Source: Diplonema papillatum | Lineage: Eukaryota; Euglenozoa; Diplonemea; Diplonemida; Diplonemidae | Reading direction: 5' to 3' | Assembly: GCA_030068145.1 (NCBI GenBank) | Contig: JAPJBO010000026.1 | Span: 496,001-560,000, forward strand | Length of the DNA stretch: 64,000 nt | Part shown: piece by piece, positions 13,251 through 53,430 of the stretch | Layout of the letters: the number at the start of each line of letters is the position of its first letter | How positions within the stretch are numbered: the stretch's first letter is position 1 | Made by a program: the position numbers and the translations under genes | Notes under the pieces: model-generated | Database searches by the model: none | Told to the model about the DNA's origin: nothing | The model's input: the letters and a program-made list of their open reading frames with translations, nothing else

Positions 13251-13261
13251 TGTTTTTTTTT

Positions 13262-17083: not shown

Positions 17084-17401
17084 GTCTTCGTCTAACGCGG
17101 CTAAAAGGTTCGTGCCCGCCGGTACCCTGCTCGGTTCGTATTTGTGTTGTCGGCGATGAACGCTTGTCGGTTGCCCGGCTGGTTTCTTTATGTGCTACAC
17201 TGCGCTGCAACTCAGGACTAGCACGCTATACAACAGACCACAGGTGGGATCCACGAAGTCATGACAAGACGGACAGCAGGCAGCTTTGGGTTTGCACGAA
17301 GGAGGAATCTTGCACACCTGCCCAAGAACACGGAGAAAGGATTGTGCAGAGAGCTGATGGCAAAGCCCGGGAATAGAAGAGCAAAAATAGCTATTTATTC
17401 T

Positions 17402-17512
17402 CGAGAAAAAGTTAGTTTTCTGCACGAGTAGTTTTCCAGTGTGCCACGAGTAGCCGTAGGCCACGAGTGGCACACTGGAAAACTACGAGTGCAGAAAACT
17501 ACCTTTTTCGAG
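17402..17512. mobile_element. Nested palindrome with six direct CGAG copies
   Basis: CGAG occurs at 17402, 17425, 17447, 17464, 17486 and 17509. Between successive copies lie matched arms: 19 nt (17406-17424) with 19 nt (17490-17508), 18 of 19 complementary; and 18 nt (17429-17446) with 18 nt (17468-17485), perfect. The 13-nt core is TAGCCGTAGGCCA. Each layer is a palindrome centred on CGAG, and each inner layer is flanked by two CGAG copies. This is the pattern expected if each was inserted at the centre of the one outside it with a 4-bp duplication. Confidence 0.85.
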
Positions 17513-17805
17513 TGAATGAGATACGTTTTCCACCGCACCACCGACTTTTCTGCACTCGAGTTGCACTGACACCAGGTAGAGCGGAGGCCAAAAAACGAAG
17601 AAATGTGTCAAGCGGGGCAGCAGATGTCCTTGCATCTGCAATAAGCCTGGGGTGCGGCTACATTGGACGAGCACACTTTTCCAAAACTTCGTCTTCTTGT
17701 TGCGTTAATGGTATGGTCCTTTGACAGAGTGAGCCGATGCCTCTCATCTCACCTTTAAAACACGGCTGAGGCACGCATGCTGTTGACAGACGCTAGCGTC
17801 CGACA

Positions 17806-18795: not shown

Positions 18796-19507
18796 GTGTC
18801 CCGTTGTTCCGCGAGCCGCCGTCGAAGAAGACTGCTGTCAGCGGTTCGAACAGTTCGTCAGCGTCAGCGCCAGGCCGCTAAAAAGCTCGAAGTCAATTGC
18901 GAGTTCAAAGAACGTCGCAGAGGCGTCGTCTCCTTGCTCCGCCCATCGCTTCGAGGAGCTCCATTTTCGAGCATCTCTTGCGAGTCGGGCCACGCTGTGG
19001 TGCTCGGCCGGGCTCCCTGCACATCGATGGGGTACACAGCAGTCGGTGGTTTAGGGCACCATCCCCACGGGTAGGTGTCGACAGAAAACTCCTTTCTCCG
19101 ACAATCCTTTTCAACTAATCCTTCCACCTTCTGTCGGTCGAGCAGAATGCGCGCACATTAGCTGAATCGACCCTGCCATGACCGCCGCTTGGTCGTGTTA
19201 CGCCTGTTTCAGACATTTCGGCATGTTCGGAAGACTGGCGACGAGTGCAGGTACTCATTCCTGATTGCTGTCCACCTCGTGCAGTCCCACCACATGTGGT
19301 GCTCGTCTTTCGGTACCCCCGCGTCGCAGTACTTGCAGACATCGTGCCCAAGCCGCTTTCCCGTCAAAACAGCGTTACCTTGCTGGTATCCGGTCAGCCC
19401 TCCTTCCGTCAACGATCGTTGTGTCGCCGGACCGTCGATGCCGTGGGCAATCCCCTCGAATTGTCCTCGCACGATCTTCGCATACCTGCTGGTGCGGACG
19501 GCCTCCC

Positions 19508-20972
19508 TCACCGCGTGCTGAAACTCGTCTCTCGCAACTGCCGCCCGCCTCTTTGCGCCTCTGTCTTCTGCGTCGGTCTCGCAGAAGAGGTTCCATTCCT
19601 CGGGTCTCGTAGACGTCCAAGCTCAGTCCACGTCCAGCCTACCTCTTCGACAGCCTCCTGGAACAGGGCTACCGGTCCCTTCTTCTTTGCGTTGAGTTCT
19701 CCGCGCTCCTCTCTTTCGCGCCTTGTTGCTCGTACCTCTTCTGCAAATCGCCTGAGTCGTGGTCGTCTGCCTAATTGCTGCCCGAGCGTGAGCAGCCGCC
19801 GATGCAAAACGACAAAAGCCGGGTCCAGCCGGTGTCCACGGCACAACACATTCAGCACTATTGCGCCGTTCCGGCGTGGGCTTCCGGACCAGATCCCCGC
19901 CAGTGTTGCTCTCGTCAAAGCTTGAACGTACTTCTTGGGTGGCTGCCACACGGCGGTGCCATACAGCGCCTTGGTCGTTGCTGCAGCGGCTACGTATCGT
20001 TCCCTTTCTTCCATCGGTACGGGGGTGTCGAGCCCGGCGGGCGATGGCTTGTGCCTTTTCGTGTCGCTCCTTTATGCGCTTGCTCGGCCTCGGCGATCCT
20101 TGACTTACCGAAAGCATCGTCCCCAACACGTCGAAAGCCTGCTGTCTCTCTATCGTCTTCCCTTGCACTTTCACCGTCCTCTCACGGCGTTCACACGTTG
20201 TGTACCAGTAGGACTTTGCGGCTCCGACTCCCAAGGCTGCCGCGTTCGCGAATCGTGTTGTTGTTTGTGTGGCCGCTTTAAACTGTTTCTTGTCGCTCGT
20301 CATCGCCTGGGTGTCGTCCAGGAAGGCCAATGCACGTACAACTTCTTCCTCGCTTCCGAGTACCTCTACCGCTCGGATCCATACTGCAACAAGCGCATTC
20401 AGCAGCAAGACACTCGAGGGAAATCCCTGCAAAATGCCGTTTGCTGCGTTGAAGGCTCCCCCTATTCCGCCCGCGGTTTTTCCTTTGTCGATTCCCATGT
20501 ACTCCACCAGTCTGAACATTATGTCGTGAGGGAGGCGATCGATGCACTTCTCGTAGTCTACGGACAACATACAAAGGCCGTCCGCACTCGATTGCATGCT
20601 CGATCCACAAGGCTACTTCGAACATGACGTCGGCCGCCCCTCCAGAGGCACCGCCCCGCGTATTCCATCGGGTATCCATTGGCAGACCCACTCTCCCAGC
20701 ATCCGAAGCCGCGTCGCCGCCCAGAGTCGGTAGACAGCACTTGTCACCGAGATTGGGCGCAAGTTCATCGGTCCCGCCTCTCCCTCATTCTTTGGTATGA
20801 GAGTTATCAACGCCGTCAGAAGTGTCCGAGGCCCACGGCCAGTCTCTTCGACTACCCTAAACAGTTGCGCGAACCGCTCAATCGCTTCATCTGGCAGCGC
20901 CGCCAATTCGTGGACTCGCCAGCCTTCTGCCCCCAGTTCCGTTTCCTTGCCCAGCTTGGTAAGAGTTTTCAA
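19508..20972 (-). pseudogene. LINE reverse transcriptase region, frameshifted
   Basis: The N-terminal RT part at 20972-20613 reads ELGAEGWRVHELAALP, then LLTALITLIPKNEGEAGPMN, then LRPISVTSAVYRLWA. This is the usual finger region of non-LTR RTs. The frame then moves through FEVALWIEHAIE to MLSVDYEKCIDRLPHDIM (motif A) and NGILQGFPSS (motif B). The catalytic box is ALAFLDDTQAM (FLDD), at about 20320. The frame changes again near 20010. Residues at the active site appear kept although the frame is broken. Confidence 0.75.
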
Positions 20973-24896: not shown

Positions 24897-24967
24897 TGGG
24901 GTAGCCTACCCGGTAAGTATACAAAGAATTTCGAAGATATCATATGGTACGATGCCAAAAGGGGGGG

Positions 24968-25634
24968 GTTTGCAAGAACGTGCTTGGAATGGATATGTGC
25001 TCAACACCGCACTGGTCCCGTCTGCGCCGTGTTTCGGTCCTTTAAGCCACGGACACATAAGGCGGACCATCATCAGCGTGGAACCTGAGTGTCTGCAGAC
25101 AGGACTGCGGTGTGAGTCTGGTTTGTCAGGCGGCTGTTCGTAGCTCGTCACAGCCAGGACCACCCGTGCTACTAGAGCACAGGCGAATCCGTCACGGGGA
25201 GAAGGCCCCTACAACCGTGTCTGAGCAATCAGTTAAAAAACTCAGGGCACTCGCCCTGATTGTGACTGCGACTCGCTAGGCAGCACTGACTTGTCTTCTT
25301 TTTACGGTGGCAATCTGCGAAGTAAACTCCGCAGAGCACAGTGGACATGGGGTTGCCGTGTGCAGCACCAATGGTTGAAGTACCAAAAGGAAAAGAGTGC
25401 GAGGAAGTAATCCTGCGTGCTGAGGGCAGCAAGTCGCGTTACGCGAAGTACCCTACTGGAATGGGGGGATTGCAAGAACGTGCTTGGAATGGGTATGTGC
25501 TCAACACCGCACTGGTCCCGTCTGCGCCGTGTTTCGGTCCTTTAAGCCACGGACACATAAGGCGGACCATCATCAGCGTGGAACCTGAGTGTCTGCAGAC
25601 AGGACTGCGGTGTGAGTCTGGTTTGTCAGGCGGA
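24968..25634. repeat. 500-bp tandem array, about 1.3 units
   Basis: It has the same unit as the 5566-7240 array; the anchor AGAACG recurs at 24975 and 25475. It starts at the same unit base directly after a G-run. It also stops about 0.3 of the way into a unit, there against a T-run followed by GGGTGT. The flanks carry a near-direct repeat (CATATG-x3-ACGATGCCAAAAG) at about 24942 and 26338. Confidence 0.85.
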
Positions 25635-25714: not shown

Positions 25715-25719
25715 GAGGG

Positions 25720-26117
25720 GACTCCCCCAGTTGCAGCAGAACAACCAGGCACATTGATCTGTGACCCGTCACTTACAACAACTCCACTCCTACACTACGT
25801 TCTGCTACGCAATGTCTCAGACACACAACGTTCTGCCGCGCACATTTGCTACGCAACGTTCTGCTAAACACCAACGTAACTGCAAAGCAATATGCGCAAC
25901 GTCTTACACAACGTTCTGCCGTGCACATTTGCTACGCAACGTTCTGCCAGACACCAACATAACTGCAAAGCAGTATGGGTTTCTTTCCATCCTCGGGAAT
26001 TTAGTTTTCCCAATAAAATTATTTATTCGGCAATAATTTCCGCCAATTTTGGCTCGGCAAAATAAACGGAAATTATCTTGCCGAATAAATGCTTATTATC
26101 GACATCACCATGGGTGA
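25720..26117 (+). mobile_element. Palindromic repeat element, empty-site copy
   Basis: It matches 43755-43248 in inverse orientation. It contains repeated ACGTTCTGC(T)ACGCAACGTTCTGC blocks, then a palindrome of about 68 bp with arms 26022-26052 and 26057-26089. The dyad centre is a single CTCG at 26053-26056. In the other copy a 121-bp nested palindrome sits exactly at this tetranucleotide. This copy is therefore the unoccupied site. Confidence 0.75.
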
Positions 26118-28809: not shown

Positions 28810-30203
28810 TCAGAATTGAAGAGTTCCAGGCTCAGAACGCGCTGCGGCAAGAAGATCGGGTAAAGGCGTTGGGGCAACAGGGTCTGTTTGTGTTCCAACT
28901 GAGAACGCTAGCCCCGGTCTTGTTTCCTGGCGCCAGCACCTGCTCCGGTCAATACAAGACAGAAAGGTGTCGAGGTCTACGTAATCTAGACTTCTCTGCG
29001 ATTTGCAAAATTCTCGCACAAAGCTCCTGCATGCGTGGATTGGGATGCCTCCCTGATCCCATGCAGCTTCCACGCCGAGAAACAACAGCTGCGACAGCGA
29101 CGAATCAAGCAGCTTGCTCCGCAGTCGTGCTGAAACAAGGCGCATCTTCGAAAAGAGCCGTTCTGCCGATGCTGATGTTAGAGGCATGATGCTCAGGATT
29201 GTCAAGACCTTCGCAGTTGCAGGAAACTTATGCGCTGCTTGAGATTCAAGTCTAAACTCGTTGACTACCTCTTCCAGGTTCCGAAGCTGTTTTTCGACGA
29301 TGTATTTCAACGCAGCACCGCATTCGTTCATGAGAGCAGCCTTGTGTCTGCCGTCCCACAAGGGAGGGAAAGGGAGGGTGCTCGAAGTCTGGACACTTTG
29401 TTGCCAGTCCCGGTGGGGTGGCCATGAAGTGCTGAGCAACCTTGGCGAGACCCTCGTGTACCTCTCGGCTGATGATATCACCAGACGCAGAGATCGTTGA
29501 TCGAAACGCAGTGCTCCGGGGGTCGAATGCGCAAAGGTGCTGCAGAATATCACAATCAGCAAGGTTGTCTTTGATGTTGCTGACAATGTAAGGCACTGCG
29601 TTTGCTTGATGTCAAACGTCAAACACCTGTGAATCAGCTGGGATTCCAGCCAGGGTAATAACTTCCCAACAAGCGTTGTAAGTTCAGGATGTACTTGGGT
29701 CATCTCTGAGTTGGGACGCGAAAGAACGCCTCTTTCTCCACGTCTTTTGCTTGGGAACGAAGGAGCTCAAGTGGATAGCGCCTTGCTACATCCTGTTCGA
29801 CCAGCTCTTCATACCTCATGATGAGGTTTCTCTTCCGTTCGGTAGGCAGGGCCTGCAACGACTTGAATCCTCGGAGAGCGAGTTGTTGCTTCATGAAGTC
29901 GGCTAGTGGCAGTCGTGGGTGCAATTTCCCGAAAATTGGCTGAGGTTGCGCTTTCGACTTGAGCTTCTCCTTCCTGGCGCACTCGGGCATGCCCAGCAGG
30001 CTCTGCATTTGGAGCCATAAAGCCAGCGAGTGTGTCTGTGATCGATCGAATCTCGCCCGCTTCTTCGGTGGCATGGTGCCCTGACTGACCCTGGCCAACC
30101 CCCAAAAAAAGAACCGCCTGTTCAGAGAACCATCATTTTTTTTTTTCCCCCCCACCCGCCCAAGTTTTTTTCGGGTATACAGTAAACTTGGGAGACGGCC
30201 CAA
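28810..30203 (-). pseudogene. hAT-family transposase, decayed
   Basis: The C-terminal region reads MPLTSASAERLFSKMRLVSA, then RLRSKLLDSSLSQLLFLGVE, the hallmark dimerisation domain of hAT transposases (P-x-S-x-x-x-ER-x-FS). Upstream in another frame are IVSNIKDNLADCDILQHLCA and FDPRSTAF, where hAT proteins have their LDPR-type motif. The next frame upstream (29700-30203) is basic (MPPKKRARFDRSQTHSLA). The pieces lie in at least three frames, so the gene is broken by about two or three frameshifts. No terminal inverted repeats were recognised. It is a dead DNA transposon or a remnant of a domesticated gene; the frame breaks favour the first. Confidence 0.7.
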
Positions 30204-33190: not shown

Positions 33191-33229
33191 ACCGGGAAAA
33201 AACGTACACACCCGGGAAAAAAAATCACG

Positions 33230-33407
33230 TTTTACCGGGAAAAAGAGTGTGTTGGCCCTCAAAAAATGTTTTCCCCTCGGGCTTCGCCCTCGGGGAAAAC
33301 ATTTTTTCGGGCCAACTTTTCCCCCTCGGGCTGTTTTCGCCCTCGGGCTGACGCCCTCGGGCGAAAACAGCCCTCGGGGGAAAAAAGCACTCTTGTTTCC
33401 CGGTAAA
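33230..33407. mobile_element. Two nested palindromes centred on CTCG
   Basis: Outer inverted ends TTTTACCGGG/CCCGGTAAAA enclose two hairpins. Hairpin a: tetranucleotides CTCA 33259, CTCG 33277, CTCG 33290, TTCG 33307; outer arms GTTGGCC/GGCCAAC; middle arms of 13-14 nt; core GGCTTCGCC. Hairpin b: CTCG at 33326, 33343, 33357 and 33374 (gaps 17-14-17); outer arms TTTTCCCC/GGGGAAAA; middle arms GGCTGTTTTCGCC with its exact complement; core GGCTGACGCC. The block ends near AAAAATAGTTATTTTT. Confidence 0.85.
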
Positions 33408-33804
33408 AAATAGTTATTTTTACCTGCTGCGGTACTTTTTCTCCCTCCTACACGAGAAAAGCCGGGCAAAAAGAATCACTTTTTCTCCCGGGTTTTTTTC
33501 CCGGATACTTCAATTTCACCAAAGGGCGAAACAAGGGCGGGAGGATCAGAAAATGCCGACAGGAGAGAAAGCGTTCCCCGAGCGAAAGCAGCTCAAAGAG
33601 TGCCTCAGACGAACCCGAGCTACTTCCGGAGGCATCTAAAGAGCGCTATGTTCAGGTTTTCGCAGCGTTCTTGGAGCATGCGAACATAAAGCGACGCAAG
33701 AACGGCCTCGGCAGTTTGCTAGATTTCTTCTAGAGCTCGTTCATTCTTTCTTCTTCCGCATCATTCATGAGAAACGAGCTTTCATCAGCCACACGGTGCA
33801 GTAG

Positions 33805-33990
33805 TAAACTTGTAAAATGACCCTTTTACTAGTAAATTTACTAGTAAAAAACTTTACTAGTAAAATTTACACTTTTACTAGTAAATTTTACAAGTGCACT
33901 AGTAAATTTTACAAGTGCACTTGTAAATTTTACAAGTGCACTTGTAAATTTTACTAGTGCACTAGTAAGAATTACAAGTGAATTCAGGTG
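33805..33990. repeat. ACTAGTAAA/ACTTGTAAA palindrome cluster
   Basis: TTTTACTAGTAAATTT and AATTTTACAAGTGCACTTGT recur in direct and inverted form over about 180 bp. A related cluster lies at 36585-36715, and ACTAGTAAAA forms the ends of the 36945-37158 element. Confidence 0.8.
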
Positions 33991-36057: not shown

Positions 36058-36584
36058 TTTGCTTTTCAGAGTTGACCGCACTGTTGCCCACGACTCAGTC
36101 CAAAAAATGGATGCCAAGCCTGTCCGGCATAAGACGCAGGCAGAGATATTCGTAACCTCCTTGGCCAAACGCAAGATACCAGAGCGTCTTTGTCGTGCAA
36201 TGGCGCCCATCTATTTCTGGTACCAGGACGTACCTGTGCACGACTCTGCTCTGAGAGGACAAGGATTTCTGACACAAGGACTTTTTGTATGCTCCTCCCT
36301 CGCGCTCCGTCTCTTCCGATGTTATTGTCCCGTGTTCCCACCGCATCGAGCCACAGGGGGGTCGTGTTCGAGTGTTCACGTTTGCCTTGGAGTGGGGGAA
36401 GCCTGGATTGATGCGGTCTGCCTAAGCGCGGGGCTCTCAAGCACTGGGTTGACACTTTGCTCTGCTCACCCAGCCCAATTTTGACGAGTTAGGTGAAAAA
36501 GATGCCGGTATTTCTGAATGCGTGCTTCACTTGCCACAGTTTCTTCTTGTTTCACCCCAAAACACCTGCCAAAACACCTGAAAT

Positions 36585-36715
36585 CACTTGTAAGTTTTAC
36601 TAGTGCACTTGTAAATTTTACAAGTGCACTTGTAAAATTTACTAGTGGCACTTGTAAACCATTTTCACTTGTAAAACCACTAGTAAATTTACTAGTGAAA
36701 GCCTTTACTACTGCA
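36585..36715. repeat. ACTTGTAAA/ACTAGTAAA palindrome cluster
   Basis: Repeated TTTTACAAGTGCACTTGT and TTTACTAGTG in both orientations, as at 33805-33990. Confidence 0.75.
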
Positions 36716-36944
36716 CCGTGCATGCTTCTTCCCCCCCCCGTTCAACCGTACCGTGAAGCCCAGGAACAGCACAGCAAGTCGGGATCAAAAGTACCTTTTA
36801 AGAAGGCCGCGAGAGTCGGCTGAGCCGGGAGCTACCGGAGAAGGTGTGTATGTGCTTAGGTATTACAACCTGGTTCGATTGCAGGATAATAAAACCTCGG
36901 GGATAAAAGACTGCGTGTTTTTCCCGTTCAATAAAAAAATAGCG

Positions 36945-37158
36945 TTTTACTAGTAAATAAGGTGCGTGTCCCTCAAACAAGTTTTTCTCCCTCGGTTGGG
37001 GTTTTCTCCCGAGCCTTCGGCTCGGGAGAAAAACCAACCTCGAGAAAAACGTGTTTTCGGGACACGTTTTCCCCCTCAGTTGAGTTTGCTCCCTCGCCTG
37101 ACGGCTCGGGAGCAAAATCAACTTCGCGGGAAAAAAGCACTCTTACTTACTAGTAAAA
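36945..37158. mobile_element. Two nested palindromes centred on CTCG (second locus)
   Basis: Outer ends TTTTACTAGTAA/TTACTAGTAAAA enclose two hairpins in the same order as at 33230-33407. Hairpin a: CTCA 36972, CTCG 36991, CTCG 37021, CTCG 37039, TTCG 37056; outer arms GTGTCC/GGACAC; central loop TTC. Hairpin b: CTCA 37075, CTCG 37093, CTCG 37105, TTCG 37123 (gaps 18-12-18); outer arms TTTTCCCC/CGGGAAAA; core CCTGACGG. Arm sequences differ from the first locus yet remain paired. Confidence 0.85.
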
Positions 37159-37165
37159 AATAGCT

Positions 37166-38440
37166 ATTTTAACCATGGGGATTTCTGGTGAAAACTTTTT
37201 GGCAAGGGACCCAGGCTACAGGCTCAGATTCTGGAGTCGTAGTTGCTGTTTTGTGTGTACACAGCCTGCCAGCGATGTGGTCCAGAAATATCTATGGGGC
37301 ATGAGGGGCGTTGGGATTAGCGTGTTGGGGGGCGCCTGTCGTGTGCAGCTTCGCCCTGCCTCGATTCGTTGAAAGGCGTTGAGGCCATCATGCCGTAGTG
37401 CCCACTGGGACTGACAAGTGAAGGCTACAACAAAGTGGAGAAGCAGCAGCCAGATTGTGTTTTCCATCACACCCAGTAATCAGTCACTGGAGGATCGTTT
37501 GCTATCCTGAAGCTCACAGGCCTGAAAGGATTTTGAAACTAAAAGAGATGTCGCTCGCCGCATTTGGTTTTAGTGGTGCTGCCACTGTCAACACTGTGCT
37601 AACGTATGACGCTACTGTGTGGGACACTGCTTGCTTCAGCAATCCATGCTTTCCCACGCGCAGCGTGGGAAAAAAAAATTTCTGGCCATATCAAAGATTT
37701 TTAACCGGGATTTTTCAGAATTGCGGGGATTAGAATAACCCCTGGTTAAGTCCGAAAAAAAAAAAAAAAAAAAAAAAAAGACAGGCGCTTCGTTTTGTTT
37801 GTGCGTGCCGGCCCTTTGCGTATTTGATGTTGTTTCCATCACGCCGGGTAGGAAGGACACGGACGAACCTCGCCGCGGCCAGTCACCTCATTCTGGATCG
37901 ACTCTGTCGAACTATGGGGCGACGATGAGTTTTCAGAACCCATATTGACCGACCGTGGTGTTCTGAACCTTGGTCGTTTTGGCCAAACGGAACCGCTAGA
38001 TTGCTACGGTGCTCGAGCCGCTACATGTCTCTGAACCCTACGGCCGACAGCTTTGGCCGCAACCAGCTTAGGGTGTTCTGAACCCTTCGAGCCGACAGAT
38101 TTGGTCGCTGGAGGCTCCGGGTGTTCTGAACCCTTTGAGCTAGACAGCTAGTGGGTGTACCCTACCCAGTAAGGTTTTGGGGAGCCTGCGGGTCTGCCGC
38201 ACTTGCCCAAATTCCCTACGCTAGATCGGCATGGCCGCCCAGCCAGGCCTCGTAAGGACCCAACCTCCACGCCCCTAGTCAGCAGGCGTTCTGAACCTGC
38301 ACGGGCTCCCGACAGAGGCCCCAAAAAAAAAGGAATACCCCCTCGGAGAAAAGTGACTAGCATGCGAAAGCAAAAAGGGGGGGAGCGATGCTGTGCGAAT
38401 TCAGTGCAAAGGATCGTGTGCTTGCCATAGAGTAAGATCA
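37166..38440. other. No recognised gene; CTGAACCC repeats and A-run
   Basis: There is an A-run at 37756-37779. Between 37940 and 38125, GTGTTCTGAACCCTT and GCCGACAG-TTTGG(C/T)CG motifs recur with irregular spacing of about 50-60 bp, a degenerate tandem repeat. Confidence 0.45.
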
Positions 38441-38445: not shown

Positions 38446-40020
38446 TCAGCGGTGTCCAGGGACGCCGTGCACCGCTCTCCACCAGAACCAGCGCTGCTCC
38501 GGGAGCCTGGTGATACAGTCGGCCTCATTCATGTCCGTAGGGACGTACGCCAACCGAAGGCAGGAACGCCTCTCAGCAAGACGATTCTCGACCAGAGTAA
38601 GCCAGCCCTGTACCGTCGCGTCTAGGGAGAACCCGCGTCGCTGCAGACCGATAACTACCGTGTTATCACAGTCTACCTCTAAGCAAACTCCTGCCGCTTT
38701 CTGAAGCGAAATATCGACCAGCTTCCAGACCGCGAACAGTTCCTTCAGGAAGATAGGCGCTTCCAGCAAGCACCGCGGAAAGGATCCGTAGATTCCCTTT
38801 CCCTTCACCACGAAACCCCAGCCGACTCCGCTCGCATCCGACACACCCTTCAAACGGGTGCTCGGTGGAGGGCTCCATCCCATCCAGGGGTTTTGTATCA
38901 TACGCGTCACGAGCAACTTCCAGCGGTCTCTCACATTGTTCGTCATGCACACGTTTCGGTCCCAATCCGCTTTCTGCCATGAATCTCTCTGAGTCGAGCA
39001 TGATGACATCCAGCGGAGAACTTCGACAATGTCAGCCAGGGGCAGCCCGAGCGCATGCTGCCGCCAGATAAGGCATCCTGCTAGCCTCCACCAAGCCCGT
39101 ATCGGGGCTACGGCCATTCCGAGTAGGGATATCGCTGGTACCCGCACTTTTTCCACCCATTTTGGGTCAAGGCAATACCTTTTGTTGTGCAGGTCCCACT
39201 TCCATCCCAACCCCGTCCCGATCTGCGCCGGCTCACTGACCTCACCAAGCACCGTGCCGTACCTCCCGCAGAGATCTCTGTAGCGCATACACACCGCCTG
39301 TACCTCCCTCTCCGGACCTGCAAAGAAAGTGTTGTCAATCCAGACTATCGACACCACCGACGTACCCTCCGTTGCCTCGCGCGCCATTGCCTCACCCACC
39401 GCCTGCGCCAGCTGCGGTGCTGCCCTGAAACCCATGGGTAATCGTTTCATACGAAACACCCTGCTCCCGATCCGGAGGCAAAAGAAGTTTCGGGTCTTCT
39501 CCGGGAGGCGAAATTGAAAGAAAAAGCTCTTAAAATCGAACGCTGCAACGACCGCACCCCCCATGACCTTTGCCAGTATCTCCGTATACGACGGCAAGGA
39601 GCAGGGCGGTGCGGCGCGGTGTTCTGTCGCTGTATTGATACTGCGGCAGGCGAGGATAAACCGCAGTAAACCCGGCTGTGACTTCTGCACAAGAAAAGCG
39701 CTATGAAACCACCGCGCCTCATCCTGTCTCGGTATGGGCTCTACGATGTCGTAGCCCACAAGCCGCTCCAAGTGTGGGCCCAACTTTTCATTTGGTGCGC
39801 CCGTCAGCCGTCTAGCACCCTTTCCGGCGATCTGTCCCAGAAAAACCGCATCGAGCCACGCAAAATTCAGCTGCAGGTGAGGAAAAGACTTGCAAAGACT
39901 ACCCTGGTCGATACACGTCAGGGGAGAAGGTGAGATAACTCCCTCGTAGCACGACTTGGTCCTGGTGGCGCTGCTACCTCCAACATGCCTCAACCACGTG
40001 TCGACGTAGTCATATGTCCG
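38446..40020 (-). CDS. Reverse transcriptase/RNase H of the DIRS-like element
   Basis: The RT core includes RFILACRSINTATEH, AFDFKSFFFQFRLPEK and RMKRLPMGFRAAPQLAQAVG. A C-terminal part ending ...CLRLAYVPTDMNEADCIT resembles an RNase H tail. The open frame runs further upstream to 41088, but that part overlaps the recombinase in another frame and looks non-coding. Confidence 0.75.
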   Translation of the reverse strand, partial: RTYDYVDTWLRHVGGSSATRTKSCYEGVISPSPLTCIDQGSLCKSFPHLQLNFAWLDAVFLGQIAGKGARRLTGAPNEKLGPHLERLVGYDIVEPIPRQDEARWFHSAFLVQKSQPGLLRFILACRSINTATEHRAAPPCSLPSYTEILAKVMGGAVVAAFDFKSFFFQFRLPEKTRNFFCLRIGSRVFRMKRLPMGFRAAPQLAQAVGEAMAREATEGTSVVSIVWIDNTFFAGPEREVQAVCMRYRDLCGRYGTVLGEVSEPAQIGTGLGWKWDLHNKRYCLDPKWVEKVRVPAISLLGMAVAPIRAWWRLAGCLIWRQHALGLPLADIVEVLRWMSSCSTQRDSWQKADWDRNVCMTNNVRDRWKLLVTRMIQNPWMGWSPPPSTRLKGVSDASGVGWGFVVKGKGIYGSFPRCLLEAPIFLKELFAVWKLVDISLQKAAGVCLEVDCDNTVVIGLQRRGFSLDATVQGWLTLVENRLAERRSCLRLAYVPTDMNEADCITRLPEQRWFWWRAVHGVPGHR

Positions 40021-40157
40021 CACCAAGCTGAGCAGACTCTTCGGCCAGCATTGGATCCGCTCCTTGCCGAGTACGATTCTCAAGGGAACTGTTATCTCGG
40101 GACAGCCGGCCGGGTGAAGCGGACACTCTACCTCAACACCAAGGTCAACGGGAGCTG

Positions 40158-40928
40158 TTACAAGAGGGCCGACAGAGCGCTTCTCGTCCCCGCTACAGGT
40201 GCCCATGTCTCCATCGGAATATACCTGCGGGTTGATTCCCTGTTCTTGTGCCGTCCTGCGAGGACGGCCGCCTCCTCTCCAAACTTGCTCGCCACCTCGG
40301 TGAGTGCTGCATGTCGGACTTTGTGCGACGTCATGCGTAGGTGTTTCATCAGAAACGCGTTGTACGCCGCCCGGTTTAGTCCCGGCAGCAGACTGTCGTC
40401 CTGAGAGAGTGCCTTCTGGGCACCCCACTCGACGACTGTCCTCAAGAACCGGCTGTTGTTCGGGACCATCAGCCCCTGACCAGTGCCTCTCCTGTCCGTT
40501 TTCCCTCCGATGTACACTATCAGAGTGCACTCGGGCTTTTGGATCAGGTGTCTGACCTTGATTCTGTGCAGGTCGATGAACCGTGCAGCCGTACACCATT
40601 GTAGTGCCAAGGCCGCGCTGTGTACCTGGGAGTTCTGCCCCCTGACTACAGCCCATATCGCTGTCGACCCGGGCAGGTTGTCGTGGATTGCGATCTGCCT
40701 TTCTCCTTGGTCGACATTGTCCGTCAGGGACTTTTTGAAAGCCGCTGTAGACTCGATCTCCGCCATGGCTTTGTACGTCAGGTACTGCATGGCTGATCTG
40801 CTGGAGATCTCTCCGTTCTCTAGTTTCCGTGTAGCCCACATCAGAAAACTGAAGCCCGGCGAAATTTCTGGGTGGAGGGTTCTCACCCGCTCCGAGAACA
40901 GACGAGCCCTTTTCATGACCGATATCAT
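40158..40928 (-). CDS. Tyrosine recombinase of the DIRS-like element
   Basis: The protein has the box I arginine region (QWCTAARFIDLHRIKVRHL) and the box II signature SHKVRHAALTEVA...GRHKNRESTRRYI, with the H-x-x-R, H and Y residues of the family. It would integrate a circular DNA copy by site-specific recombination, without the DDE integrase of LTR elements. It lies between the Gag-like and RT regions. Confidence 0.75.
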   Translation of the reverse strand: MISVMKRARLFSERVRTLHPEISPGFSFLMWATRKLENGEISSRSAMQYLTYKAMAEIESTAAFKKSLTDNVDQGERQIAIHDNLPGSTAIWAVVRGQNSQVHSAALALQWCTAARFIDLHRIKVRHLIQKPECTLIVYIGGKTDRRGTGQGLMVPNNSRFLRTVVEWGAQKALSQDDSLLPGLNRAAYNAFLMKHLRMTSHKVRHAALTEVASKFGEEAAVLAGRHKNRESTRRYIPMETWAPVAGTRSALSALL

Positions 40929-41084
40929 GGGGCCCGCGTCCTTGTACGCCCGTATCAGACGGTTCGACGTGCGTTGGCATAAGGCCGGTACCTCCTCGGG
41001 GTCTACCTCGTAGTCCCGCTTTCGCGGCCGGAAGGCTTCGATGAGGCCGTCGAAGACTCTCTCCCCCGAGTTTGCGACTTTCAG

Positions 41085-42035
41085 TCACTTTTTTGCCACT
41101 TTGGCCCTCGGGTACTCCGCGCCCTTCCCAGCCCCGCGCTTCCTGCTCTCCTTCTCCGCTCCTTTGTTCCGCTCCTTCCTTAGTGCTTCCTTCACTAAGT
41201 CGGAGTCCGCGACGGCCCTTTTCGCCCTGCGCACGACTTCATCGTCGAAGGCCTGCCAGTCTACGCCGGCCAAGGTCCGCTCGTAGGCCGAGGCCTTCGC
41301 GACACCGACCAGAAACGTCGCTTCGCGACTCCATAGGCGGAGAGCCTCCAATCGAACCAGCAGTACATGTACTGCCGGCAAGCAGCTCTCCGTCCACCTG
41401 CCGTCCACCAGCAACGCAAGCATAGCTTGCCAAATGACGCGACGTTCCTGGTCGCTGTGCGAGCCAGTCTCCGAGGGGTCCTCCAGGAAAGGACCGTACC
41501 TCTCCTTGAGCTTGGCAAGGATCTGTTGGCACCCGGACGGTGTGGCCACGTACGGCCCCCAGCACACTGCGCGCCGGATGTCCAGGTTGACGGGCACAAC
41601 CGCTAGTTGCTGCTCGTCTAGCCTCTGCCGGAGGCTGTTGTTGAGTGCCATCAGGCTGGCCATCTGGGCCCTCAGGACGGCAGCCTCTGAACCGAGAGCG
41701 CGAACGGTTTCGTCCTGGTGATCAGCACCAAGGACTTTTCCCACATCTGGTGGGTTCGTTCCCGCCTCGCTCAGAGTGTCCGAGCCGACGTCACGTGGGA
41801 GGACCATCAGAGCCCCTTGCCCTACCGCCCAAAGGCACGGTGGGCATACCCACGCCGCAGCCGAAGCCACGGGGAGAAACTTTGCAGCCGCAGCCGCCGG
41901 CTTCACGAAGCTTCTGATACACGTGGGCGTCGTGACCCCCCCGCATCTAGCACAAGCCGTGCTATCCGGCCCGTGCACTGTGGAGCAGTCCGCGAACACG
42001 CAGTCTCCATCCAGCCGCGTTTTCCGGGAAGGCAC
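41085..42035 (-). CDS. Gag-like protein of the DIRS-like element
   Basis: About 316 residues with an N-terminal Cys pair region (CSTVHG...CARCGG), a predicted coiled coil at about 110-140 (VLRAQMASLMALNNSLRQRL) and a basic C-terminus (RKRGAGKGAEYPRAKVAKK). No domain is firmly recognised; the Gag role follows from its position upstream of the recombinase and RT. Confidence 0.55.
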   Translation of the reverse strand: MPSRKTRLDGDCVFADCSTVHGPDSTACARCGGVTTPTCIRSFVKPAAAAAKFLPVASAAAWVCPPCLWAVGQGALMVLPRDVGSDTLSEAGTNPPDVGKVLGADHQDETVRALGSEAAVLRAQMASLMALNNSLRQRLDEQQLAVVPVNLDIRRAVCWGPYVATPSGCQQILAKLKERYGPFLEDPSETGSHSDQERRVIWQAMLALLVDGRWTESCLPAVHVLLVRLEALRLWSREATFLVGVAKASAYERTLAGVDWQAFDDEVVRRAKRAVADSDLVKEALRKERNKGAEKESRKRGAGKGAEYPRAKVAKK

Positions 42036-43247: not shown

Positions 43248-43755
43248 GAAAGGGATAATGAGGGATAATAAGCATTTATTCGGCAAGATAATTTCCGTTT
43301 ATTTTGCCGAGGTGTCGGTTTTAGTCCCGAGGGAGGCCCGAGGGGGGGTTTGCAACCCCGAGCCACGAGCGGAGCGAGTGGCGAGGGGTTGCAAACCCCC
43401 CCGAGGGCCTCCCGAGGGACTAAAACCGACACCGAGGCAAAATTGGCGGAAATTATTGCCGAATAAATGATTTTATTGGGAAAACTAAATTCCCGAGGAT
43501 GGAAAGAAAACCATACTGCTTTGCAGTTATGTTGGTGTCTAGCAGAACGTTGCGTAGCAAATGTGCACGGCAGAACGTTGTGTAAGACGTTGAGCATATT
43601 GCTTTGCAGTTACGTTGGTGTTTAGCAGAACGTTGCGTAGCAGAACGTTGTGTGTCTGAGACATTGCGTAGCAGAACGTTGTGTAGGAGTGGAGTTGTTG
43701 TAAGTGACGGGTCACAGATCAATGTGCCTGGTTGTTCTGCTGCAACTGGGGGAGT
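43248..43755 (-). mobile_element. Palindromic repeat element, filled-site copy
   Basis: It is the inverse-orientation partner of 25720-26117. It carries the same ACGTTCTGC-type blocks (43540-43700) and the same AT-rich palindrome. Its dyad centre CGAG is duplicated (43308-43311 and 43433-43436) around a 121-bp insert that the other copy lacks. Confidence 0.8.
43312..43432. mobile_element. 121-bp nested palindrome with ten CGAG copies
   Basis: Including the flanking pair, CGAG occurs at 43308, 43328, 43339, 43359, 43366, 43375, 43382, 43402, 43413 and 43433. The gaps 20-11-20-7-9-7-20-11-20 are mirror-symmetric. Matched arms, all perfect: GTGTCGGTTTTAGTCC/GGACTAAAACCGACAC, GGAGGCC/GGCCTCC, GGGGGGTTTGCAACCC/GGGTTGCAAACCCCCC, CCA/TGG. 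The core is CGGAG. Each layer lies at the dyad centre of the layer outside it. Confidence 0.9.
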
Positions 43756-44027
43756 CCCGGCAGGTTGACGTTGTAGTTCACAACATACGATGCTGCTTGC
43801 ATGGGCGCTTGCATGAAGGACTGCACAGGTGCTGTCGTGCTGGGTAGGACTGTTGGATGAGCGCTGCTGACAAGTGCTGCGGTTTTCTTTCTGCGAGGTC
43901 TTGATATGGATCAGAAAGGATGAATTAGACTCAAAACGAGCTCAAAACACGCGATTTCACTCACCACAGGGAGAAAAAAAAATTTGCGAGGGGTCTCCCC
44001 TACAGATTTCTGCCTACGACCTTATTT

Positions 44028-44130
44028 TGCGCCGCCAGCTATTTTCAGTCGGAAAAATAAACGAATTTGTTTCCCTAGGGACAATAAATTTCATTTATTT
44101 GTTTCGACTGAAAATAGCTGGCGGCGCAAA
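44028..44130. repeat. GC-armed palindrome with AT-rich centre
   Basis: GCGCCGCCAGCTATTTTCAG and its exact inverse enclose AAATAAACGAA/TTTCATTTATTT inner arms and a CCCTAGGG centre. It resembles the nested palindromes in layout but does not show the repeated CGAG. Confidence 0.65.
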
Positions 44131-45149
44131 ATAAATTCCGAGATCGGAAAAAATAAATTCGTTTATTTGTCCGGCCTGTGTAAACACACCGGAATCCTGT
44201 CAAAAAATAAACGAAATTTATCGTCACGCTCCGCAAGCCATTTCCACCAGAGGGAATTTATTTTTCCCAATAAAAGACGCAACGCGACCAAAGAGGAAGT
44301 GACGGCAGCATAAAATTGATGTCGATGCTGCCAACATCAATAATGCCGCCCTCACCCAAGCAACTTCAACATTCTGACCGCCACGCCTGTTGGTGCAGTT
44401 CGTTAGTCAGACCAAAAAAAGCTTGAAACTCTCCGGGCCTGGCGTCCCTGATGGACGGAACATACGTGGGTGACTGGGGAAACATGGTGGCCGAGCGTGC
44501 TTGCTTATGGGCTATCATGGGACCAATAATGTGGCTCATCCGTCTCTTGCTATACCCTCGTTAACACGTGAAAAATCTCTCATCAAGGGGTTGGCCTTTT
44601 TTTTCGCATTTTTGGCAGGGGCCGCACTTTGGATCTGGGTCAGAATCAATCCGATCTTTCCAAATACGCCGTTCTCGGAAAAAAGAATAAAAATGGGGTG
44701 TTCCTGCAGTTTGATGTGCGGCGATCTGACACGAGCAAATAGGTAACCACAAGCTAATGATGCAGAATGTCGTCACATGTGGATGTTGAGGGTTTCTGGT
44801 ACCAGATTCCGCTCTGCTGTGCCTTCCACTTCGTCTTCTGCTGCTTCCAACCCACGTTCTCATGTTTACTTGTATGTACGGCGGCCGTGCCGAGTGAGGC
44901 TTTTTGAATCTGTTGTCCTCTTCTGCATTGTCGGTGGGTTCTTCCTGCCGTTGCTGTCTATGCTCCGACAACACCACCCGATGGTGCCCCTTCCGGTGAC
45001 GGTTGGCACCCGTCGTCGTATACAAGGTGCACTGTGGCAAGCGATGCGTAATGCGCACCTTACTGCGTGGCCATCGCTTTTCTGGCGGGGTTCAACATTG
45101 CCCCGGCGTACATGTGCCCTTCTCACCTCCTGGTGCTGATTGCACTCCC

Positions 45150-46167: not shown

Positions 46168-46905
46168 CCTCAAACGTCAGTATTGGTGATCCAAAAAAGT
46201 GGGACAACCCTCAAACGTCAGTATTGGTGACCCAAAAATGTGGGACAACCCTCAAACGTCAGTATTGGTGACCCAAAAAAGTGGGACAACCCTCAAACGT
46301 CAGTATTGGTGATCCAAAAAAGTGGGACAACCCTCAAACGTCAGTATTGGTGATCGAAAAAAGTGGGACAACCCTCAAACGTCAGTATTGGTGATCCAAA
46401 AAAGTGGGACAACCCTCAAACGTCAGTATTGGTGATCCAAAAAAGTGGGACAACCCTCAAACGTCAGTATTGGTGATCCAAAAAAGTGGGACAACCCTCA
46501 AACGTCAGTATTGGTGATCCAAAAAAGTGGGACAACCCTCAAACGTCAGTATTGGTCATCGAAAAAAGTGGGACAACCCTCAAACGTCAGTATTGGTGAC
46601 CCAAAAATGTGGGACAACCCTCAAACGTCAGTATTGGTGATCCAAAAAAGTGGGACAACCCTCAAACGTCAGTATTGGTGATCCAAAAAAGTGGGACAAC
46701 CCTCAAACGTCAGTATTGGTGACCCAAAAAAGTGGGACAACCCTCAAACGTCAGTATTGGTGATCCAAAAAAGTGGGACAACCCTCAAACGTCAGTATTG
46801 GTCATCGAAAAAAGTGGGACATCCCTCAGATGTCAGTATTGGTCATCCAAAAAAGTGGGACAACCCTCAAACGTCAGTTTTGGTGATCCAAAAAGGTGGG
46901 ACAAC
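46168..46905. repeat. 41-bp minisatellite, about 18 units
   Basis: The unit reads CCTCAAACGTCAGTATTGGT then GATCCAAAAAAGTGGGACAAC. Most differences are at the dinucleotide after GGT (GATCC, GACCC, CATCG). Units are contiguous, with no spacers. 41 is not a multiple of 3, so it opens three frames in turn; the short open frames are by-products. Confidence 0.95.
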
Positions 46906-49900
46906 CCCAGTTTTTGTTGTCTGAAAAGTGGTCTAGCTGTAGATTTCTAAGTGAGAAACACCAACAGGATTGTTGAAATGGGGTTGAAAAGTTTATCATG
47001 CAGGGTCCAAACCTTGTGTCTTTTTAAAACGCTCCCGCGGAGCCGATGGACCCCAAAAAAAAAAGTTGGAAAAAAAAAATTGCTCAACTTCCTCACAGGT
47101 GTGGCCTTAAAGCGTGAATGTAAATAGAGATTTTGCCCAAACACGTTTTTTTTGCACTTTTTTTGCACCAGGCTACAGCCAGGCCTTACGTTCAGCATGC
47201 TAAACGTACTGATTTCAGCACGTTAATTCTTTTTGTTTCTCTTTGTACACATGCTGAATCAGTACGTTATCAGCACAAATCTTGTGTCCAAGATGCCACC
47301 CGAAGGCCACCCTAGCAGGCCCATGCAGGTCTTTCGAAGAACTGGTGGAGGAGGGAGCTGGCTAGTGCGTTGCTCAGGGTAGTCGGAGGCCTGACAATCA
47401 CACTAATGCAACAAATTTACAACTGGTGGAGGAGGGAGCTGGCTTGGATGCCTGCACATGACAGGCATGCCCGTTTCTTCGGGCTTACGCGAGTGGGGGA
47501 GTTGGGTGTACCATACCGTTTTTTTCGGCTCGCTACGCGAGCCGAAGAAGGGGATGATAAATACTCCATTACTTCGATGGCCGCCATAGAGGGCCGCATA
47601 TGATATGATCATTCATCAGAGTGCAAGAGACAAGTTACCCCAGTCCGGAACGCAAAACAGACATAGCATGCCGTGGCTCGGCTCGATTTCTTCGTTCGAT
47701 GAAGAACTATTCAGAAATGTTTTGTGACCAAGCTTGGAGCCTCTGAAGGTCTTAGCTTTATATTGGCAAGCGTTGACACAACGCCATTCGAGTTCCTGTT
47801 GGAACTTGCGCCTGACAAACTTCCGATTGTGATGATGGTGATGATCTTAGCGGCAGTGCTGGTACACCTCCTCAGCACAGACGACAGAAAGAAAGCGAAA
47901 GCGCGAAGAGTCCGACATTCCTCAGTCCGAAATATTTCACCCTCTCAGTGTAGCTACGATCCAAAACGGGTGCAAAAAACAGGCGGAAAAAGTGCAAAAA
48001 AACGTAAATAGGATCTTGGATTTTGCCCAAAAAGAGCGTAAATAGGGCCAAACGTGCTTCCTCAAAAATTACTGCAGAGTTTGTTCCAAAATTTTAAAAT
48101 TCAAAAAACCCATTTTTTTTCCGGAAAATTTTTTTTTGCCATTTTCAAAAAGACACAAGGTTTTGACCCTGCATGTTATTGGAAAACCCGTACCGTTTGG
48201 GCGGGGGGCGTTGCCCCCCGCACCCCCCTGTTTTTCATGTTTTTTGGCGGGATATCTGAAAAATTTCTGAAAAACTCGCGGAGAACACCAATCCGGAGTG
48301 ATTCCAGAATTCTGGAAAACCGGACCCTCCTGGGGGGAAAAGGTGGGTCCCCCACCCCCCCCCCCCTATAAATGGTGGGCTGGTGGCCCGCTCAGGAAAA
48401 AATCTGTGCTCCCTTAGCAGATTTCATACTACACCTAGTCAGGCAGGGCCTTCACCGGAAGCTGTTCTCCCGCCTACAGGGATAGCGCAAGGGTTTGCTG
48501 GGATCGCCGACGGCTTAGATACACGGGCCGTCATGATCGCCATCACCGACGGCTTCTTAGCCTCCCAAAAGCACGTGCAAGTGGAGCTTTGATCTTGAAG
48601 AGTAAGAGCGGGAATCCGGTTGAGGAGCCACATCATTGCCGAACTTACCGTGATGATGTTCACGGTCGACCCGAGTTTCGTCGGCTCTGCAGCCTTTTGC
48701 CACGGCGGGTTACGTTGATCGATTTGCATCCGAAGTACGGGGCCGCGAGGGGTGCCGTTCGGCGGTGCTCTACTTGGCACGACACGCAAATGTCTCGAAT
48801 CAGCGGGTCTCCCCGATCCGCTATCTCGCTAAAGCTTTCTGGCCATGCTTTTGCCCCCAGGGATGCAACAAACGTGGACAGGACGCGGAACAGAGGTCTT
48901 CCTCGGTGCAAAACCTTAGTATAGTAGTATACTTCTAGGATGAAAAGCCTGTGCGGTGCACAGGCTTTTCAGGAAGGTCTCGTTGTTTGTGTTGCAGCCG
49001 ATCCCTAGACGAATTGTCGCATTCAGTTAAGTTCTTGCTTCGAGGTCGATGGGACCTTGAAGCAATGAGCAAAGCGAAATGAGTTTTACTTATTTCGCGC
49101 AGCGAAGCGACGAGGTTGATGCTGTTGCAACCACCAAGTCCGAGAGCGCCACTCCAATCGACATACCCGATACACGGCCTTGAATAGACACCAACGAGCT
49201 GGCCCAGCTTTACAGCTGTGATGGCAAAACTGACCAGGTTGTCAAAGTCAGAAATGTTGCCACCGTGGTCTATTCGATTCGAAAAAGGCCACATCACGAA
49301 AATTCAAACCCCATTTTCTTACCGACGTACTTGTTGATGACCCGAGCAACGGTTGCAGCTGCTCCTGGCGGAGCTGCCAGTTCTGTTGGTTGAGAATGGT
49401 CACATTGGTCATCCTCACCGAACAGCACCGGCCGCTCTTGCAACAAGGTAGCCTCTCGCTTTGCAACACCGCAGCCAGAGCTTTCGCCTTCTTTCATACG
49501 ACGTTGACGATCCGAATCGCGTTTGAGCTTGGCATTCAGTGCAACGAGTTCCTGAAGGCCAGCAGCATCAACCAGCGAGAGGCTGTCAATCGTCTCTGGA
49601 TGGGGAAGTGCGTCGAACAGTGTCGTCTCAGCTTTTCCTGCGCTTTGTCCTCATTGTCCTGACAACTGCGCTTTTGTATAGGCATTTCGTTCACGAGGGT
49701 CCCTCTTTCCTGTTGAACTGGGGGGCATCGCGGTGCTTGTATGTTATGCAGCAAGCCGCCAGGGGGAAGGACGGACGGGCAAAAAGAGATGTCAAACCAC
49801 CCAAACCTGGGCTCATGGTGAGTTAGGGACCCAACTCTGCTTGCAGAAGTCCCTTAGTAAACTTAGACAATTAGCCCACAGCACTACAACTCAATACCAC

Positions 49901-51057: not shown

Positions 51058-53208
51058 CGTGTGACCCTCAGATCGGTTTTTCAACTCGATTTGCTCGTCC
51101 GTCGAGTCAAAATTCCGCTTGTGATACCAGCCAATGGGGTTGTACGGGTCCTCTAGCCGTTCACCAAGTCCACCTCTGATGTCCGCGTACTTGCCCACGC
51201 GCTCCCAATTTGTGTCGTAGAATGAAGGCTGAGCTCTGATGTGCCGCAGGTCCTCTGCTTGCTCAATAAGGAGCTTCTTCCAAACGTCGTGCATGCGTTT
51301 GCGCCGCCTTTCCTCGATCTTGTTCAACTCAAAGTATTTCACAACGTTCTGAGTCGTGGTGCCGTTTATACACAGCGTGAGCACTACGATGCCGGCCACG
51401 TGGAAGATGAACTTCTCGCGGACAGAAGCTATTGCGACCTCTTCGTCGGCTTGAATACTCAGGGCGAGAGCCAACCCAACAGCCCCTCGGAGACCGCCCC
51501 ACGCGACAAGAACTAGGTTCCCCGTCGAAATCTTACACTCCAAGAAGTGGAAGAAAGGGAGCATCATGACCAGAACAATGCCACGAACTACGTTGATCGT
51601 GACGTAAATGATCAGCAAGTAGAGGAAGTCGACAGGCTCGAAGTCTGCGGGTTAGTAGCATGCGTGGCAACGAAAAGTAACAGAGGCCAAAACCGGTCAC
51701 TTCAGAACGGGCGTTGGGGGCAGGTTTATTCCGGACTTGCGGCAAGACTCGATAAAAGTAACAGCAACTGTCGTGCGACTGCATTTCGAGCCGAGGGTCC
51801 GTGCGCGCATGTCATTTCTCAGGTCTTGGTTTTAGAGCTAAAGTTCGCTTGAAATTCCGGAGTTTTATAGGAAAGTAGGTGATAAGCCAGCACAACATTG
51901 CAAGGACCTTCACGTAATGCAGTTGAAGTGTTTGAAGCACGGAGAGTACTAGAAACGTAGCATACTGTCGAAAGCCTTGATGTACACAATCATGCCAGCC
52001 AAGATGAAGATCAGGGTGTTCGTGAGGTAGACAGTGATCTCCCAAAACTCGTGTAGGGTGTGCATGACCTCCGGAGAGATGGAGTGACGGTAGTAGCTCA
52101 TGAAGCAGCCGGCAGCGACAACACCAAGAACGCCGGAGACTTCGAAGAAGACCTCGCACACGAAGAAGGTGATGTATGCCGTCACGAACGTCATGGTTAT
52201 TTCGATCAGTGCATCGTTGAAGACTCGGTTGAGCAGCGCCACGGACGCCATGCCAATCAACAGACCGACGACCGGCCCGCCCAGTGCCACCTTCACCAGC
52301 TTCAAAACGATCTCGCCCACAGTTTTGTCCAGCGCGCAGTCTGGATGTGCCAACTCATCGCACACGCAGTCCTCGACGCAAGTGTCCCAATCGACGACGG
52401 CGCAGCTATCTTTTTGAATCGCTTCCACGAGCAGCGAAAAAATGACAATTGCCGTTCCATCATTGAAGAGCGACTCGCCCTCAATCAACGTGCTGACGAC
52501 CGGAGAAGCCCCGAGCTCCTTCAGCAACGCTACGACTGCGACTGGGTCGGTGGCGGACAAAATGGTGCCGAAGAGAAGGCAAGCGTACCAGTTCCACTCG
52601 TACTCAGTAAACACGTACTTGGCCACCATCGCGGTCAGTGTAGATGCAATGAGAAGGCCAGGCCCCGCGAGGAGCACGCAGTGAGCCATCACCTTCTTGA
52701 AGATGGGAATCTCCATTGCGAACGCGGACTCGAAGATCAGAACCGGGAGGAACACGTGGAAAATCAGATGCGGGTTGATTTCGGAAAGTTCGGCGGACGC
52801 GTCGAAGGCCCACCACGCGTCGCTGAGCGCGCCCCACGCAACGCCAGCGAGGAACAAGATAACCGTGTAGGGTATCGGTGTGTCTTGAAATATGTACCGG
52901 ATCACAGCGCCGAGGGCGAACGACGAGAAGATTGTGATGATGACGTACGGGACCTTGTGTTCCTCCTCCTCCTCGATCTCAGGAGACCCCTGCATGTGGT
53001 GGATGTAGTCGATGCAGACCCGGTCTCGGTCGTGAATGTAGTCCAAGCAATTCGACTCGTACCATGTCAGCGATTCGTGGTGATAGATTTCGAGCGGGCA
53101 CTTCTCCACCAGGCACATTCCGCACGTCCCGTTCTCTGCCGGTGCCGTTGCCGAAACCTGGTACTCGCTCAGCAGCCACACTGCGCACGCCGCCCGTAAC
53201 CATGTCAT
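51058..53208 (-). CDS. Na+/H+ exchanger, CPA1 family (SOS1/SLC9-like)
   Basis: Exon 1 runs from the ATG at 53208 to 51966, exon 2 from 51663 to 51058, joined in phase by a 302-bp intron (donor GTATGC, acceptor CCCGCAG). Further 3' exons are probable, since exon 2 ends at a GTATGG donor. The N-terminus (MTWLRAACAVWLLSEYQVSA) looks like a signal peptide. A Cys-rich outer segment follows, then many membrane helices. The core carries SATDPVAVVALLKELGASPV and STLIEGESLFNDGTAIVI (about residues 220-255), with the ND pair typical of electroneutral exchangers, and WGGLRGAVGLALAL in exon 2. A Cys-rich loop (about 265-300, CAVVDWDTCVEDCVCDELAH) is unusual for the family. The protein would exchange Na+ for H+ across a membrane. 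The kept part after the last helix is basic and charged. Confidence 0.9.
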
Positions 53209-53430
53209 CGCGCCCTCTTTCTGACCCGGCAACTTGCCGGGTATAGCGTGAAAAACGGAACCGAGTTTCCAAAAATTGTTGTTGGTTTGAGTGGCGGAGG
53301 CGTGCCGATTTATTTTCCTGTTTTCTTGTCTTGGACGGGGTTAGCGTGCATAAAACCGCTTTTCCGCGAAATACGACGGATTCTAGCTTGCCTTCTTGCG
53401 GAGCCGAGGGGGAATCGCTGGGGTCTGGAG

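Follow-up and report, generated by a model that had tools for sequence, protein, structure and literature searches.

The stretch of Diplonema papillatum DNA analysed here (64,000 nucleotides, hereafter the window) raises a simple question: how does a palindrome come to carry the same tetranucleotide at every layer, and what do those repeated steps represent? The tetranucleotide is CGAG, and its ten copies start at 43308, 43328, 43339, 43359, 43366, 43375, 43382, 43402, 43413 and 43433, giving start-to-start gaps of 20-11-20-7-9-7-20-11-20, while CTCG does not occur at all within 43291-43460. An earlier note on this DNA had described the ten copies as lying in mirror spacing, which is exact by coordinates, and had reported a 121-bp stretch between the outermost copies with four pairs of perfect arms, which we confirmed (16, 7, 16 and 3 nt). 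A chance origin does not account for the pattern. The single-strand DNA fold of 43265-43480 has a z-score of -18.9, with 0 of 200 shuffles equally good, and quasi-palindromes with one 2x2 mismatch, counted in a scan that uses no energies, number nine in the window, as against one in total in ten shuffled windows. The core may be listed as follows.

43308-43436, plus strand: CGAG-stepped core of five self-facing CGAG pairs (tandem GA/GA mismatches closed by C-G), defined by spacing, DNA fold and quasi-palindrome scan.

Alignment with other loci shows that the nested palindrome does not stand alone but forms one terminus of a dispersed element, here designated A. A 20-mer from its left arm has 439 matches in the genome at two or fewer mismatches (6 for the reversed control), and a 28-mer from its right arm has 325 (control, 0). 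The copies sit within contigs, with flanks that differ from copy to copy, and not at chromosome ends as a Streptomyces-type telomere would. The parts of A in the window are these.

43265-44275, recombinase orientation minus, folded CGAG strand plus: element A, a non-autonomous copy of a tyrosine-recombinase element, about 1,010 bp (alignment with other loci, empty targets).
43267-43478, plus strand: terminal hairpin of A, beginning at the left-end motif AATAAGCATTTATT (DNA fold, inverted repeats, motif).
43471-43505, plus strand: 35-nt inverted copy of the A right terminus (86% complementarity with 44241-44275), directly beyond the hairpin.
44241-44275, no strand assigned: right terminus of A, ending CCCAATAA (alignment, inverted repeats, empty targets).
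About 25718-26100, minus strand: second, truncated A copy with one CGAG (plus-strand CTCG at 26053-26056) and symmetric loss of the 121-bp core (comparison with the window copy).

Sites resembling AATAA are the targets into which A inserts. Short direct repeats of the 4-6 bp described for Cryptons occur at both ends of A in the form of AATAA, which is present at the right end of 45 of 46 copies and in the left flank of 44 of 70, most of the remaining left flanks ending in TAA. The scan for empty targets covered L059, L007 and L008, and a target duplication is absent in the two empty targets examined, namely that of L059, which lies in the window itself as a paralogous empty target within the palindrome array at 33790-33950, and that of L008, which lies inside other A copies. 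Head-to-tail junctions of the form CCCAATAA-TAAGC are present in L007, L014 and L097. Of the two copies of the 35-nt inverted repeat of A, one is terminal and the other lies 206 bp in from the opposite end; this inner site is apparently used as a target for insertion. Copies L008, L018, L069, L101 and L153 sit at the hairpin base of other A copies. A second inverted repeat lies within A at 44022-44134 (36-nt arms, 94% complementary), and palindrome arrays of the TTTACTAGTAAA type occupy 33790-33950 and 36571-36720.

The window contains other repeated and coding sequence around A. Frames of retroelements with reverse transcriptase and RNase H-like domains lie on the minus strand at 7434-13283, 17809-18837, 19626-20612 and 38449-41238, the last scoring below the Pfam cut-off, and a hAT dimerisation domain is found at 28813-29766 (minus). 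A sodium/proton exchanger frame at 51952-53340 (minus) is 100% identical over 90% to a EukProt protein. In addition, an 82-bp tandem array runs from 46168 to 46907, and a nearly identical block of about 670 bp is repeated between 5577-7240 and 24961-25633.

What kind of element is A? A tyrosine recombinase is encoded, on the other strand from CGAG, in the longer middle of copies L063, L042 and L027, and the last codons of its gene persist in the window copy.

43725-43883, minus strand: tyrosine recombinase remnant, last 53 codons, 100% identical to L042 residues 287-339.

The L063 frame comprises 359 amino acids and is open at the locus edge. It matches the PHROG_1 integrase (E 1.4e-8) as well as NCBIfam NF040815 (E 3.6e-7, residues 21-299) and Pfam PF00589 (E 7.2e-6), both of the latter with scores below the curated cut-offs, and the catalytic R, K, HxxR, H and Y of such enzymes appear, by eye, to be present. 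Its protein is 100% identical to D. papillatum DIPPA_00065 over 65% of its length, and that of L042 is 99% identical. Two homology searches returned no homologs beyond D. papillatum, the sole match being P0121 of the same species, and in a PDB sequence search the best recombinase match was XerC-like (E 0.073). Cryptons have no reverse transcriptase; of the long copies of A, which were read in part, L042 has only about 1 kb between the parts common to A copies. Sequence comparison of these copies identifies A as a short derivative of an element encoding a tyrosine recombinase, with the gene on the strand opposite CGAG. Rfam searches at gathering scores, phage records and a tRNA scan gave nothing useful.

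It was this gene that changed our view of the element. The inverted copy of the terminus and the lack of a target duplication had at first favoured a rolling-circle element of the Helentron or Helitron2 kind, with the hairpin as its 3' terminator: like Helentrons, HINEs and Helitron2 (PMC4067079, PMC5148889), A has no target duplication in two empty targets, asymmetric palindromic inverted repeats (one copy terminal, one subterminal) and a hairpin near one end. Its target is T-rich, the 5' ends of fungal Helitron2 are described as GAA-tipped hairpins (PMC5148889), and a Helitron hairpin is reported to act as terminator, with a loop that matters (PMC4778049). The longer copies of A, however, carry a tyrosine recombinase in place of Rep/helicase, and because of this the Helentron identity was dropped; a Rep/helicase partner is conceivable, but we now regard this identity as very improbable.

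Why the palindrome is layered is a separate matter. The earlier note proposed that the layers are successive foldback insertions, each received at the centre of the palindrome before it and each duplicating CGAG. Such a history would fit the CGAG direct repeat that flanks each layer of A, the outermost stem, which carries more mismatches than the inner stems, and the occurrence of symmetric empty states. These states are rare, however. At three or fewer mismatches the outermost level is empty at two places in the whole genome, compared with the 439 left-arm matches, and the next level at one place; all three lie close to filled copies in sequence, and the sampled copies show no series of partial filling. 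Compared with the window copy, the empty copy L009 shows about 99% identity and the 26-kb copy differs at 5 of 313 aligned bases. The latter, an inverse copy, had been put forward as the empty site. It does have the single CTCG at 26053-26056, but it is no simple pre-insertion site: the base that follows the tetranucleotide is changed (CC in place of GC, read in the CGAG orientation), and the other end is truncated. It also carries a 13-bp insertion that is shared with some filled copies, such as L016, and that could be of either age, old or new.

Losses of layers point in the same direction. Among 108 copies that retain both outer CGAGs, 55 are full, 12 have lost sequence between non-partner CGAGs, 2 have lost it between partners, and 39 are otherwise changed. 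The 26-kb copy falls outside this pattern and brings the partner losses to 3 when included, and six of the 12 non-partner losses (L014, L034, L054, L112, L148 and L154) need a tolerance of one change at the junction, which makes the strict ratio 6 to 3. One-sided CGAG-to-CGAG losses, which are impossible as insertion intermediates, are nevertheless commoner than symmetric ones, and exact loss from CGAG to CGAG looks like ordinary direct-repeat deletion. Layers have also been lost at other microhomologies, as in L024 and others. One-sided gain occurs as well: in L108 (C14) one arm has an extra CCC layer with CGAG, perhaps through slippage. An origin of the 26-kb copy by exact deletion, which the earlier note itself, speaking of most relatives, had named as one case against nested insertion, is favoured as far as this one genome goes.

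An alternative meaning for the CGAG steps emerges from three further hairpins in the window, located at 17386 on the plus strand and at 33418 and 37168 on the minus strand.

17386-17517, plus strand: hairpin of family B with three pairs of CGAG and a C(GTA)G tip (fold; about 382 genome matches of the B arm).
33209-33418, minus strand: family C terminus, outer stem plus two branches, steps CGAG/CGAG and CGAA/TGAG, tips C(GTCA)G and C(GAA)G (fold, repeats).
36936-37168, minus strand: family D terminus, laid out like C, with about 76% similarity between the two across 139 bp (fold, alignment).

C and D are related to each other, and all three hairpins follow the rule seen in A: read on one strand, GA faces GA, each such step is closed by C-G, and the tip is C(GNA)G or C(GTCA)G. 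The tips in the window are C(GGA)G, C(GTA)G, C(GAA)G and C(GTCA)G, and many B copies have C(GCA)G. The motif AATA[AG][GC][CTA]ATTT[AT]TT has exactly five sites in the window, counting both strands: one at the left end of each of the B, C and D hairpins and one at that of either A copy. CGAG or its complement accounts for five of the six self-facing 4-mers with outer and inner arms of at least 5 (three of the five lie in A), and in local folds CGAG/CGAG is the commonest 2x2 loop (7 on the plus strand and 4 on the minus strand, reading CTCG/CTCG on the opposite strand of the same hairpins; the next class has 3). Five of the nine quasi-palindromes mentioned above are likewise GA/GA or TC/TC, three of them in A. 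Since the other hairpins obey the same rule, the most suitable reading of the layer boundaries of A is that they are tandem G.A mismatches in a hairpin designed for one strand. Moreover, some steps in C and D have CGAA facing TGAG, so that both G.A mismatches are kept and the direct 4-bp repeat is lost; an identical repeat is thus present at each boundary in A but not in C and D. For these reasons, together with the few empty states close to filled copies and the one-sided losses, nested insertion was set aside and appears to us decidedly doubtful. The repeated CGAG resembles a code by which a single strand can form a highly stable hairpin, and does not look like stacked insertion scars.

The stems of the B subfamilies differ on both sides jointly, for example GATTGCCA/TGGCAATC to GTGTGCCA/TGGCACAC, with CGAG and GNA unchanged in the representatives, apart from an unpaired change in B1b. 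An invariant CGAG is contradicted by single copies with a one-sided CTCG (L191, L186 and L180) or with CGAA (L165), and the covariation may stem from arm-to-arm copying without selection. Computed DNA energies, in which the treatment of sheared G.A by the parameters is uncertain, are slightly lower for the CGAG strand than for the other strand in A (-98.3 versus -94.4), C (-66.5 versus -65.1) and D (-47.8 versus -46.2), and higher in B (-40.7 versus -43.2); they lend weak support to folding of the CGAG strand in A, C and D, but none in B. The exact tip of A is no general repeat, as CGAGCGHAGCGAG has 184 matches genome-wide against 100 for its reversed control. The outer stem with two hairpin branches into which C and D fold resembles the ends of parvoviruses. 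In Streptomyces telomeres such a two-branch shape has been called 'rabbit ears' (PMC4513846, PMC7205883). An unrelated palindrome array, with CTAC facing CTAC, is present at L048:400-520 and is perhaps a palindromic unit repeated in tandem.

Breaks are concentrated at the tip of the A hairpin.

43370-43374, plus strand: hairpin tip C(GGA)G, with a break at 43371-43376 in 18 of 88 left-anchored copies (break-point walk).

The 88 distinct left-anchored A copies comprise 39 that are intact through the hairpin and 49 that are broken, 18 of the latter at 43371-43376 (binomial 5e-13, computed as 18/47). Three rows were set apart, L017 and L099 as walks halted by a substitution and L037 as a break beyond the palindrome core; L017 and L070 resemble tip breaks, and adding them gives 20/88. 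After the tip, 11 of the 18 continue at another point of the element, with a junction microhomology of 0-3 bases, and 7 have no element match. At the tip of L042, two stretches similar to window positions 13664-14175 and 14248-14408 precede the resumption of the element. Family B breaks at the same place in 11 of 40 copies by hand count, the sample consisting of left-arm matches at the head of a list of 382 (24 intact by script, 11 tip breaks, 5 others). The earlier note had inferred an activity that cuts palindrome centres and installs foldback DNA in them; something does act at the centres, but what shows is breakage and not insertion.

The breakage in A also has a polarity. The left half up to the tip is kept in 13 of 61 left-anchored copies (a hand count that includes L017 and L070), whereas the right half is kept in 0 of 99 right-anchored copies (Fisher 1.5e-6), a figure that becomes 2 of 99 when the inverted cases L106 and L150 are included (Fisher 7.6e-5). 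The two samples are imperfectly matched, the left-anchored one representing one subfamily (TTTTGC) and the right-anchored one both; the right-arm list comprised 100 places, and of the 99 analysed, 45 had a left arm assigned by position and 54 were retrieved on their own. Sequencing through palindromes is difficult, and the assembly combines Illumina and PacBio reads (PMC10161547), so that assembly or cloning artefacts might be suspected behind the tip junctions; yet the breaks are one-sided, their far endpoints differ and family B shows the same pattern, and we give this explanation hardly any credence. Other copies bear different traces. The centre is inverted in L107, and CTCG replaces CGAG at one or more steps in L053, L132, L136 and L145: visible marks of folding and arm exchange.

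All of this might still be the behaviour of an ordinary unstable repeat in a Crypton-like element, a hairpin without a role that recombines as duplex and whose tip breaks are repair scars. The exact direct-repeat losses, the deletions at other microhomologies, the tip breaks themselves and the LINE-like stretches at the tip of L042 would all be expected of such a repeat. It would not lead one to expect that several families obey one rule of G.A steps and GNA tips under one left-end motif, or that the tip breaks of A are one-sided, and we consider it unlikely.

Instead, we propose that the hairpin of A belongs to a folded recombination site resembling integron attC within a Crypton-like element, a reading that we hold to be slightly more likely than not. 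The element would excise as a putative circle, after which the strand opposite the recombinase gene would fold. Because the right terminus at 44241-44275 is an inverted copy of 43471-43505, a head-to-tail junction and the far side of the hairpin are able to pair. The junction of the circle (right terminus, AATAA core and left end) would thus pair along its length with the inverted copy past the hairpin, and a single strand would rebuild a duplex recombination site, as in attC. The natural head-to-tail junction of L007 is predicted to fold into one long stem with its core paired (-123.7 kcal/mol, z -20.8, 0 of 100 shuffles equal). The G.A steps and GNA tips would presumably favour folding of the CGAG strand, as the opposite strand has T.C mismatches, and d(GNA) triloops with sheared G.A are described as stable in folded single strands. 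CGAG would then be a structural module, whose direct repeats explain the exact loss of layers. The tip, perhaps, is opened by a nuclease or by recombination error, and the half adjoining the insertion site would be retained.

It is tempting to extend this reading to a eukaryotic transposon that moves via a folded single-strand site, in which G.A steps and GNA tips mark the strand and the G.A code is common to several families. We put this forward tentatively, as a possibility; a recombinase gene was seen for A alone among families A-D, which speaks against the proposal. CGAG facing CGAG also serves as a natural strand marker: breakage at the tip, exchange between arms, inversion of the centre and exact loss of layers are recorded in hundreds of copies, so that the processing of hairpins in a eukaryotic nucleus can be read from one genome. 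Folded single-strand sites for tyrosine recombinases are not known to occur outside bacteria and their phages. The titles and abstract openings listed in our literature search, which cover few subscription papers, describe neither nested hairpins with G.A steps in transposons nor a eukaryotic recombination site that folds. TATE, MULE and Helitron genes are reported in the paper on the D. papillatum genome, and 'crypton', 'palindrom' and 'recombinase' do not occur in its main text (PMC10161547).

Among known systems, A fits a Crypton-like element: like Cryptons it has a tyrosine recombinase gene, many short non-autonomous copies, and in most copies an AATAA direct repeat at either end, apart from which the target is not duplicated (PMC3212892). 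Unlike Cryptons, A has a large terminal hairpin with G.A steps, proposed to be strand-specific; neither 'hairpin' nor 'palindrom' occurs in the text of the Crypton paper (PMC3212892). Cryptons have neither terminal inverted nor long direct repeats; in A, one copy of the 35-nt inverted repeat is terminal and the other internal. The dispersed organelle palindromes of Volvox are also hairpins, often inserted in one another, but they belong to organelle DNA, have TAAA/TTTA loops and are described there without a named recombinase (PMC2670323). Streptomyces telomeres have GCA or GGA tips closed by sheared G.A, nuclease-resistant in folded single strands and accompanied by compensatory changes (PMC4513846, PMC7205883), yet they are chromosome ends with a terminal protein, and A elements are dispersed and internal. 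The proposed mechanism resembles that of integron attC, a site for a tyrosine recombinase that works as a folded bottom strand and, like A, places a hairpin at the 3' end of a gene, with the folding strand (in A, the proposed one) opposite that gene (PMC2727003). A differs in residing in a eukaryotic nucleus, where no cassette array was seen, and in its proposed choice of strand, made in attC by extrahelical bases and here by G.A mismatches and GNA tips. If the proposal is true, a Crypton-like element would have independently evolved a folded site and would mark its strand by different means.
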